A stretch of 64,000 nucleotides of DNA from Chloroflexota bacterium (GTDB lineage: Bacteria; Chloroflexota; Dehalococcoidia; Tepidiformales; Tepidiformaceae). The position numbers and the translations under genes were made by a program. Of this stretch, positions 20,431 to 22,525 are shown one piece after another (position 1 is the stretch's first letter; every line of letters begins with the position of its first letter). The stretch spans positions 588,737 through 652,736 of the forward strand of contig JACRBT010000004.1 of the NCBI GenBank assembly GCA_016234445.1. The letters run 5' to 3'. Under the pieces are notes generated by a model. That model saw only the letters and a program-made list of their open reading frames with translations. It was not told the origin of the DNA and made no database searches.

Positions 20431-20763
20431 TCAGCAGCAGTTCGTTTTGGCCGCGGGGGCCTGTTCCGGCGGGCAGCAGACGTCGTTGCAGAAGCGCGCC
20501 AGCCAGCGCACCGTCTCCGGGTCGAGGCAGTAGCAGGGGTCACCGTCGGAAGAACCACGGACGATGCCGGCCTCCTTAAGCACCTTCAGGTGCTGGGACA
20601 CAGTCGACTGCGCCAGCGGGAGCACCTCCACCAGGTCGGCGGTGATGCAGGCGTCCCGGCGAGCGAGTTCGGTGACGATGCGGATACGGGCGGGATTGCC
20701 GAGCGCGCGGAAGACGGCGGAGGCGCGCTCCTCTTCGTCCGTGAGTCCCTCGATGGCTTTCAT
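20431..20763 (-). CDS. ArsR-family transcriptional regulator with Cys-rich tail
   Basis: 110 residues from the ATG at 20763. The winged helix shows the ArsR pattern (VFRALGNPARIRIVTELARRDACITADL, then LAQSTVSQHLKVLKEAGIVRG). The last 40 residues carry a Cys cluster (CYCLDPE, CNDVCCPPE and a terminal NCC) resembling metal- or metalloid-sensing ArsR proteins. It is divergent from the selenoprotein gene at 20847, with 83 bases between the starts, so it may regulate that gene; this is inference. The 173 bases between it and the hydrolase hold no gene that I can support. Confidence 0.88.
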   Translation of the reverse strand: MKAIEGLTDEEERASAVFRALGNPARIRIVTELARRDACITADLVEVLPLAQSTVSQHLKVLKEAGIVRGSSDGDPCYCLDPETVRWLARFCNDVCCPPEQAPAAKTNCC

Positions 20764-20846
20764 ACCGCGATCGTACCGCCTCCGGGGCACCGGCGTCATT
20801 GCGCAAAGGCGGTGCAGCGGCCCGGCGGTGCCGCTACCATGGGCTC

Positions 20847-21740
20847 ATGGAACCGGTGGACTACATCGCCCGCCTGAAGCGGACCTACGCGAAACTCGGG
20901 TACCCGGCCTACCAGTGGGTGCACAGCGAAACCCCGCCGCCATGGGCGCCGGTCCGCAAGCCGCTTTCGGAATCGCGGCTGGGGCTGATCGCCTCCGGCG
21001 GGATCTACGCCGCGGGACAGGTCGCCTTCCACTTCAAGGACGACACCGGCATCCGCGCCATCCCCCGCGACGTGCCCACAGCCGAACTGCGGACCGCCCA
21101 CTTCGCCTACGACCAGACCGACGCTCGCAGCGACCCCAACGTCGTCTTCCCGATCGACACCCTTCGTAACCTCGTCGCCGAGGGAGTGATCGGCGAACTC
21201 GCGAGCCACGCCTACACCTTCATGGGCGGGATCTACTCGGCCCGGCGCGTCCGCGAAGACGTTGCCCCGGCCCTCCGCCAGCGCCTCCAGGACGAACGGG
21301 TCGACATCGCCCTCCTGGTGCCCGTCTGACCGGTTTGTCACCAGTCCGTGGGACTGGTTGCCCGCGAAGTCGAAGCGGCCGGCATCCCGACGCTCTCGAT
21401 GACCAGCGCCCTCGACATCACCCGCGCGGTGAACCCGCCGCGCGCCGCATTCCTCGACTACCCCCTGGGCCACACCACCGGAAAGCCCCACGAACCCGCC
21501 CTCCAGCGGGCGATCATGCTCGAGGCGCTGGATGCCTTCACCTCCCTCCGCGAGCCCGGCCAGGTGAAGCACCTCCCCTTCCGCTGGGACGAGGACGAAA
21601 GGTGGAAACACGGAATGGCCGGCACCGACACCCGGACGGAGCGGTTCGACACCCCCCAGTACCAGTGTGAAGAGGACCGCCTGAAAGCGGCCGCGCTGGA
21701 ACCGGGCGATTGCCCGGTCTGCGGACTGGAAGACCTTTAG
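20847..21740 (+). CDS. GrdB-family (glycine/sarcosine/betaine/D-proline reductase B-like) selenoprotein with in-frame UGA = Sec161
   Basis: Two adjacent ORFs in the same frame are one gene interrupted by TGA at 21327-21329. The first part (160 residues; KLGYPAYQWVHS, PWAPVRKPLSESRLGLIASGG) and the second part (VGLVAREVEAAGIPTLSMTS, then NPPRAAFLDYPLGHTTGKP) are the two halves of the GrdB/PrdB-type fold. Reading UGA as selenocysteine gives VPV-U-PVCHQS, a UxxC redox motif at the exact place where family members carry Sec or Cys. A hairpin 10 bases after the UGA fits a bacterial SECIS. The C-terminus has CPVCGLEDL. Total length is 297 residues. No other reductase subunits (grdA, C, D, E) are nearby, so the substrate is unknown. 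Pirin follows 50 bases downstream. Confidence 0.88.
21340..21358 (+). promoter_or_regulatory. Candidate bacterial SECIS element
   Basis: Perfect eight-base stem ACCAGTCC/GGACTGGT with apical GTG (loop CGTGG if the closing pair opens). The stem begins 10 bases after the UGA codon, close to the 11-base spacing in E. coli fdhF from memory, and the loop has the G-U that SelB needs. UGA is followed by C. A fold and search would confirm it. Confidence 0.75.
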
Positions 21741-21790: not shown

Positions 21791-22525
21791 ATGCCCACTC
21801 GCGTCCAGCCATCCATCGACATCCGCCGCGCCGGCGAGCGTTTCCAGACGGAGATCTCGTGGCTCGATTCGCGGCATTCGTTCTCGTTCGGCCACCACTA
21901 TGACCCTGAGAACACCCATTTCGGCCTGCTCCTCGTCAGCAACGACGACGTCGTCCGTCCGGACACCGGCTTCTCCACGCACCCGCACCGTGACATGGAG
22001 ATCGTCACCTGGGTGCTCGAAGGCGAACTCGAACACAAGGACTCCGAGGGCCACACGGGTGTCATCCACCCCGGGCTCGCCCAGCGAATGAGCGCGGGGA
22101 CCGGGATCTGGCACTCGGAGATGAATGCCACCCGCGGCGGTGACGTCCACTTCGTCCAGATGTGGGTTGTGCCTGACACGGAAAGCATCCGGCCCGCTTA
22201 CCAGGAACTCGACATCGGCAAGGAACTGGCGAAGGGCGGCCTCGTACCTGTCGCCTCCGGGCGGGGCCACGAAGCTGCCATCTCCATCCGCCAGGAAGGC
22301 GCGACCCTCTGGGCGGCGCGGCTCAAGGTGCGGGAGTCCGTCCGCCTGCCCACCGCGCCGTTCGTCCACCTGTACGTCGCCGATGGAGACGTGACGGTTG
22401 GCGGCGAGACGCTTGGCCGTGGCGACGCGGCGCGCATGACCCACGCCGCCGAGGGTCAATCGCTCACCGCCGGGTACATGGGCGCCGAGGTGCTGATCTG
22501 GGAGATGCACGGCCGCCTGGGGTAG
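21791..22525 (+). CDS. Pirin family protein
   Basis: 244 residues in the bicupin fold. The iron-site region is visible: STHPHRDMEIVTWVLEGELEHKDS and then GTGIWHSEMNA, giving the His and Glu ligands of the N-terminal cupin. Pirins include quercetin dioxygenases and redox-sensing co-regulators. The start at 21791 has a GGGAGGA ribosome site; the longer frame from 21710 overlaps the selenoprotein's end. Its stop directly abuts the stop of the convergent hydrolase gene. Confidence 0.92.
   Translation: MPTRVQPSIDIRRAGERFQTEISWLDSRHSFSFGHHYDPENTHFGLLLVSNDDVVRPDTGFSTHPHRDMEIVTWVLEGELEHKDSEGHTGVIHPGLAQRMSAGTGIWHSEMNATRGGDVHFVQMWVVPDTESIRPAYQELDIGKELAKGGLVPVASGRGHEAAISIRQEGATLWAARLKVRESVRLPTAPFVHLYVADGDVTVGGETLGRGDAARMTHAAEGQSLTAGYMGAEVLIWEMHGRLG

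Follow-up and report, generated by a model that had tools for sequence, protein, structure and literature searches.

In D-proline reductase and glycine reductase, the substrate is bound by the pyruvoyl group of a partner subunit. The closest described selenoproteins to the one analyzed here are PrdB (TIGR04483), as annotated in Terrisporobacter petrolearius and Peptoclostridium acidaminophilum, and selenoprotein B of glycine, sarcosine and betaine reductase (GrdB, GrdF and GrdH; PF07355, TIGR01917/01918). We analyzed a gene encoding a relative of these proteins in a 64,000-nucleotide (nt) stretch of DNA, the window, from a Chloroflexota bacterium of the class Dehalococcoidia (GenBank assembly GCA_016234445.1, contig JACRBT010000004.1, positions 588,737 to 652,736 of the forward strand). 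The gene is interrupted by an in-frame UGA, and sequence comparisons make it likely that this UGA specifies selenocysteine (Sec, U) and that the product is a stand-alone PrdB relative, a predicted selenol-thiol reductase that would act without a pyruvoyl partner.

Sea-water reports of PF07355 selenoproteins with a UxxC motif date from 2005 and 2008. Under the name "proline reductase PrdB", 42 UxxC selenoproteins from the Sargasso Sea (PMC1088965) and 235 selenoproteins from GOS, the latter with 110 cysteine (Cys) homologues (PMC2398784), have been counted. Passages of PMC9402790 put proline reductase at 6.4 percent of GOS selenoprotein genes, and a proline reductase selenoprotein family also appears in passages of PMC13188914, PMC9312934, PMC5029168 and PMC1794560. 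To judge from these descriptions, which share PF07355, UxxC and the existence of Cys homologues with the window protein, the marine proteins very probably belong to the same family, although PMC1088965 and PMC2398784 list them as proline reductase. An initial annotation of the window had called its protein uncharacterized, but its kind has very probably been reported before, in these counts. In a limited search of open-licence text, we found no statement that the "proline reductase PrdB" selenoproteins lack PrdA.

A Sec of the GrdB type has also been proposed, in PMC10838667, to attack a polar carbon bond: FarB of Cloacibacillus porcorum is a proposed component of fluoroacetate reductase, with the C-F bond of fluoroacetate as the proposed target and FarE as partner. 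FarB is described there as encoded in an operon with FarE and a transporter, whereas the window gene has no such partner alongside.

Results

The in-frame UGA lies within a conserved coding region

The frame runs from ATG to TAG and is open except for the TGA of codon 161 (Table 1). Read through, it encodes 297 amino acids (aa), with U161 in the context VPVUPVCHQ (...LLVPV-U-PVCHQSVGLVARE...); thus, the UxxC motif of the initial annotation is present as U161-P-V-C164. The two open reading frames (ORFs) described there were likewise seen: the first closes at the TGA and the second opens in the same frame at GTG 21348, with 18 bases and no stop between them. The expected splitting of the gene by gene calling is apparent in public records. 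Of 1719 homologues from a protein search, 120 were listed, and 61 of these 120 end one residue before the Sec position (judged from the protein records) and so lack the half that carries the conserved Cys and His.

We found that the UGA is widely conserved. Named loci were retrieved with patterns for an FMGGIYS-type stretch before the UGA and for the Cys/Thr form of the motif, and in the best kept 80 of 571 confirmed loci the predicted Sec codon is TGA in 78, TGC in one (L084) and ACT in one (L132), with no TAA or TAG. Among the 120 listed proteins, position 161 is Cys in 53, Thr in five and Trp in one (P0036); the Cys homologues run uninterrupted over their full length. The comparison of relatives at position 161, suggested with the initial annotation, turned up both TGA codons and Cys. 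The segment P.CHQ between the TGA and the GTG is kept in all 80 named loci, and P162, C164, H165 and Q166 are invariant across the 16 sequences of alignment A1. The C that follows the UGA, cited earlier as a cue, adds no independent weight because it is the first base of the proline codon conserved in 80 of 80 named loci. By titles and tree labels, the family extends over Pseudomonadota, Myxococcota, Actinomycetota, Acidobacteriota and Chloroflexota, and further to Binatota, Tectimicrobiota, Thermodesulfobacteriota and Spirochaetota.

Coding conservation is present on both sides of the UGA. We compared the window gene with two orthologues from the same family of bacteria and found ratios of nonsynonymous to synonymous differences (pN/pS) of 0.30 before and 0.31 after the UGA with one (L135), and 0.34 and 0.33 with the other (L136); both other frames of the part after the UGA gave pN/pS >1. 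Homologues with a stop and no conserved second half, which the initial annotation had named as evidence against Sec, were not what we saw; constraint is equal on either side.

These results bear on whether the UGA is instead a true stop, in a pseudogene, through a sequencing error, or between two proteins of which the second starts at GTG 21348. We consider this very improbable: although both pieces exist as mechanical ORFs, and seven of the 10 other window genes checked terminate normally at TGA, the same TGA recurs in many phyla, P.CHQ between TGA and GTG is retained in every named locus, both halves are equally constrained, and the Cys homologues are continuous from end to end. That this genome decodes UGA as tryptophan, or as some other amino acid, is the least probable reading of all. 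It has in its favor the Trp of P0036, but the seven TGA-terminated genes indicate that the genetic code as a whole is unchanged, a tRNA-Sec with anticodon UCA is present (see below), and Cys or Thr occupies the position in listed full-length relatives. We rejected the stop-codon, sequencing-error and tryptophan readings on these respective grounds.

Table 1. Features in and beside the predicted selenoprotein gene, in window coordinates
Feature	Coordinates	Strand	Support or remark
Predicted selenoprotein read-through coding sequence	20847..21740	+	297 aa; full-length homologues, pN/pS
In-frame UGA, predicted Sec codon 161	21327..21329	+	TGA at 78/80 named loci
UxxC motif U161-P-V-C164, then H165 and Q166	21327..21338	+	Translation, alignments
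Hairpin resembling a selenocysteine insertion sequence (SECIS)	Stem 21340-21347 with 21351-21358, loop GUG 21348-21350	+	Folding, covariation, codon control
Lower extension of the hairpin past a 1x1 mismatch	21336..21362	+	Folding, alignment counts
ArsR-type regulator gene	20431-20799	-	Divergent
Pirin gene	21791-22525

Two further observations concern relatives outside the window. Other genomes of the phylum hold a sister group with the motif TP[AG]-U-G[LI]CNQSVGL behind one TGA (loci L154-L156, L161-L164, L167, L169 and L170), in which G follows the UGA (U-GLCNQ). A PrdB-like selenoprotein gene is also present on a contig titled Klebsiella pneumoniae (L088); it adjoins Pseudomonadales rows in the tree, with weak support, and the title looks like that of a mislabelled metagenome bin.

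A hairpin behind the UGA is maintained by pairing changes and codon choice

The perfect 8-base-pair hairpin with a GUG apex, beginning 10 nt past the UGA, is as the initial annotation described it; the spacing from the UGA to the loop is 18 nt and the first loop base is G. In the window, the lower extension consists of 21337-21338 paired with 21360-21361 (G-C and U-G), and the third lower pair, 21336/21362, is absent. The RNA fold proposed as a check gave a divided answer: the hairpin is there, but its energy is unremarkable (z -1.10; 26 of 200 shuffles fold equally well). Since the folding energy of the single hairpin is not significant, the argument rests on comparison. No Rfam family matched at the hairpin position.

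To this comparison we brought 97 Sec-type sequences (96 distinct), chosen by the motif P[VIL]CHQ behind TGA: the window, a paralogue from the same genome (L002), 17 of 29 loci from genomes of the class (L024-L052) and 78 named loci; the other 12 class loci, a second paralogue (on contig C20) and the two named loci without TGA were dropped. This choice by itself makes P, C, H and Q invariant in the set. The core pair between codons Q166 and L170 is G-C in 89 sequences, A-U in six (CAA with TTG) and G-U in two, and 96 of the 97 sequences have G as the last base of the L170 codon. Codons 167 and 169 form U-A in 73, U-G in 10 and A-U in 10, and are unpaired in four; H165 and residue 171 form U-A in 60 and C-G in 18, and are unpaired in 19. 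The top pair, next to the loop, is unpaired in 22 of the 97.

We found 33 cells with pair-keeping changes on both sides among the 96 distinct sequences, compared to a shuffled mean of 9.1, and none of 500 shuffles reached as high. Structures slid along the alignment pair at 21 to 36 percent, compared to 89.9 percent for the hairpin, and the A-U state of the CAA...TTG variant requires at least four changes on the 97-row protein tree. Two of the five measures, pairs with a both-sided change and further pair types, were no higher than in the shuffles. RNAalifold on alignment A3 returned the six core pairs only, with a small covariation term (-0.34 kcal/mol). We also redrew synonymous codons from the genes' own codon usage, ignoring relatedness: on average 5.74 of the six core pairs are intact in the observed sequences, compared to 3.67 in the redraw, whose highest value over 1000 draws was 4.04. 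Every core pair is intact in 77 of the 97 sequences, whereas 4.0 such sequences would be expected (maximum 11).

Of the 24 loci L152-L175, 21 gave a match to a covariance model (R1) at E <=1, the exceptions being L166, L168 and L174. These matches include a Cys form (L175) and two weak cases (L157 and L172), and the scores of Cys forms range from 18.6 to 26 bits; we do not lean on this model because sequence likeness contributes to its scores. The covariation and the synonymous-codon control argue that the hairpin is kept by compensatory changes and codon choice, so that selection acts at the RNA level in addition to the protein level. Its position makes it a putative SelB site.

The genome encodes the selenocysteine machinery

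The initial annotation predicted that the genome would encode selA, selB, selC and selD, and we located all four in the window's assembly (3.54 Mb, 20 contigs, 97.07 percent complete). SelA scored 540.8 bits, SelD 360.7 bits and SelB 317.5 bits, and the 623-codon frame of SelB also matched the C-terminal part of that protein weakly (19.1 bits). The tRNA-Sec scored 66.9 bits in Rfam and was called SeC, anticodon tca, by ARAGORN. The SelD gene (L012, G000:C10:286703-287638) has an in-frame TGA of its own and reads ECGG-U-ASK when translated through it. A UGSC-family gene (L178, G000:C10:400138-400566; NF041046, 153.1 bits, cut-off 125) also contains one in-frame TGA.

Across 393 genomes of the class, the protein matched in 133 and SelA in 271. 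With 15 weak SelA matches set aside (E 9e-18 or worse), strong selA was found in 114 of the 133 genomes with a protein match, compared to 142 of the 260 without (Fisher p 2.4e-10, uncorrected for relatedness). The 19 exceptions speak against a strict rule. One of them, G118, provides the sole row without an internal stop among the matches listed. This diverged relative has Cys at the Sec position (LVALCPVCHQ), and its genome has no selA match. Its source belongs to the same family of bacteria, and the locus (L143, G118:C3:15280-16038) is a natural Sec-to-Cys contrast.

The protein is PrdB-like, and no pyruvoyl partner was matched

We compared the window protein with curated profiles and found that it passes the cut-offs of PF07355 (GRDB superfamily; 45.9 bits, gathering cut-off 22) and of TIGR01918 (68.3 bits, cut-off 65.45), in the latter case through a match confined to the C-terminal part of the profile. 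It falls below those of the PrdB equivalog TIGR04483 (170.4 bits, cut-off 300) and of the GrdB model TIGR01917 (64.4 bits, cut-off 602.2, matching from profile position 261). On TIGR04483, the annotated PrdB reaches 424.7 bits in Terrisporobacter and 310.2 bits in Peptoclostridium. Thus, by the curated cut-off, the window protein is PrdB-like, yet not PrdB. The assignment to a GrdB family in the initial annotation holds for the GrdB/PrdB superfamily but not for GrdB itself, PrdB being the nearest model.

The alignment places the Sec columns of PrdB (UGTCHRS), the window protein (UPVCHQS) and the GrdB of genome G235 (UGTDTRCG) together. With PrdB, the window protein shares the domain over profile positions 15-234 of 238, the UxxCH motif and an FMGG segment; unlike PrdB, it is ~60 residues longer (an N-terminal lead and a C-terminal tail), carries UPVCHQ in place of UGTCHR, and comes from a genome without a PrdA-type match. 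With GrdB, GrdF and GrdH, it shares a homologous C-terminal half; it lacks their N-terminal half, since its TIGR01918 match begins at profile position 263 of 431, and its C164 lies three residues past Sec, in contrast to UGTDTRCG.

The gene is not isolated in its genome, as had been supposed: two diverged paralogues (L002, C8:109659-110519; L138, C20:45672-46433) each have one TGA, before PVCHQ, making three copies in this genome. Cys forms also occur on plasmids of Haematobacter and Roseomonas, under the annotation "glycine/sarcosine/betaine reductase selenoprotein B family protein". Neither the window protein nor its alignment matched anything in sequence searches of the Protein Data Bank, and an annotated PrdB gave only weak matches there, most of them to asparaginases.

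If the window gene encoded a true D-proline reductase PrdB, or the GrdB of glycine, sarcosine or betaine reductase, its partners would have to fall within the 3 percent of the genome that the assembly lacks or be too diverged to match. This reading would be in keeping with PrdB as the best named model, with the FMGG, H and YD positions and UxxCH common to true PrdB, and with the label given to marine PF07355 UxxC selenoproteins in PMC1088965 and PMC2398784, but we consider it improbable. The score is far under the PrdB cut-off, which the annotated PrdBs exceed, and PF09338 (the PrdA/GrdE pyruvoyl proprotein) has no match in this 97 percent complete genome. Of the 393 class genomes, 14 matched PF09338, the best of them at 653 bits. 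The protein is also present in 13 of the 14, so that 120 of the 133 genomes with the protein lack PF09338 (lists compared by eye; many bins incomplete). Moreover, PrdA and GrdE queries matched the controls (L133, L146 and L147) but neither the window nor any of the 80 named loci. GrdA (PF04723) was also unmatched in the genome, although the control genomes were silent as well. The PF09338 result agrees with the earlier remark that no other Grd subunits lie nearby.

Next to annotated prdB, prdA is annotated in Terrisporobacter (L147) and gives a tblastn match in Peptoclostridium acidaminophilum (L146), where a prdA-like stretch (L146:3672-4940) lies right before prdB with no gene listed in the plasmid table.

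We also scanned 134 of 153 mechanically chosen neighbor ORFs, excluding those >=700 aa. The commonest family was enoyl-CoA hydratase (8 of 134); in neighbor clustering it lies within 3.5 kb in 13 of 81 loci. The ArsR-type regulator, pirin and the other window neighbors tested had no match near the two closest orthologues, where an alpha/beta hydrolase gave a partial match (37 percent, 123 to 126 of 319 residues) 5 to 8 kb off. The ArsR-type regulator has a Cys-rich tail (DVCCPPEQ...TNCC), and a metalloid or redox link between it and the selenoprotein is possible.

Discussion

A Sec residue placed between a strand and the start of a helix is in a position that favors a reactive selenolate. The structure model (mean pLDDT 92.4, pTM 0.92) has strand 154-158 on one side of U161 and the first turn of helix 162-177 on the other. 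We propose that SelB would bind the hairpin and tRNA-Sec would decode the UGA, and that in the protein U161 would be the attacking selenolate, C164 would resolve the selenenyl intermediate to form a Se-S bridge, and a general thiol donor, such as thioredoxin, would re-reduce that bridge. As no pyruvoyl partner was found, the substrate would need to be electrophilic on its own; by analogy to GrdB-type proteins, it might be a small electrophile (C-N or C-halogen) or a disulfide.

Several observations weigh against this proposal. The enzymatic role is predicted from motif and family alone, and no conserved neighborhood was found that points to a substrate or reductant. Thr replaces Sec in five of the 120 listed relatives, which would leave C164 as the single redox residue. 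Among the 133 matching genomes, 19 lack strong selA, and some of these are nearly complete and have the TGA (G018 and G341); incomplete bins or other explanations remain for these. Finally, five Cys/Thr forms keep core pairs of the hairpin, three of the six in three forms and five of the six in two. A Sec protein with a binding, sensor or selenium-handling role in place of a reductase is a clearly less likely reading. We favor a stand-alone selenol-thiol reductase as the likely function.

The kind of protein is already known, and the point of interest is a probable mislabelling of its family. Since 120 of the 133 class genomes with the protein have no match to a pyruvoyl partner, "proline reductase" is probably a misnomer for this PrdB-like protein. 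We lean toward the broader view that the abundant marine "PrdB" is a separate selenoenzyme family and not proline reductase, one that would work through its Sec-Cys pair alone, with no pyruvoyl subunit, in Chloroflexota, Actinomycetota, Myxococcota and Pseudomonadota.

Comparative tests thus indicate that the gene is real and selenocysteine-dependent. It belongs to a widespread family that is probably filed under D-proline reductase, an enzyme whose partner went unfound in most of the class genomes that carry the protein. The correct gene model, together with natural Sec/Cys variants such as the Cys form of G118, makes the chemistry of this family directly testable.
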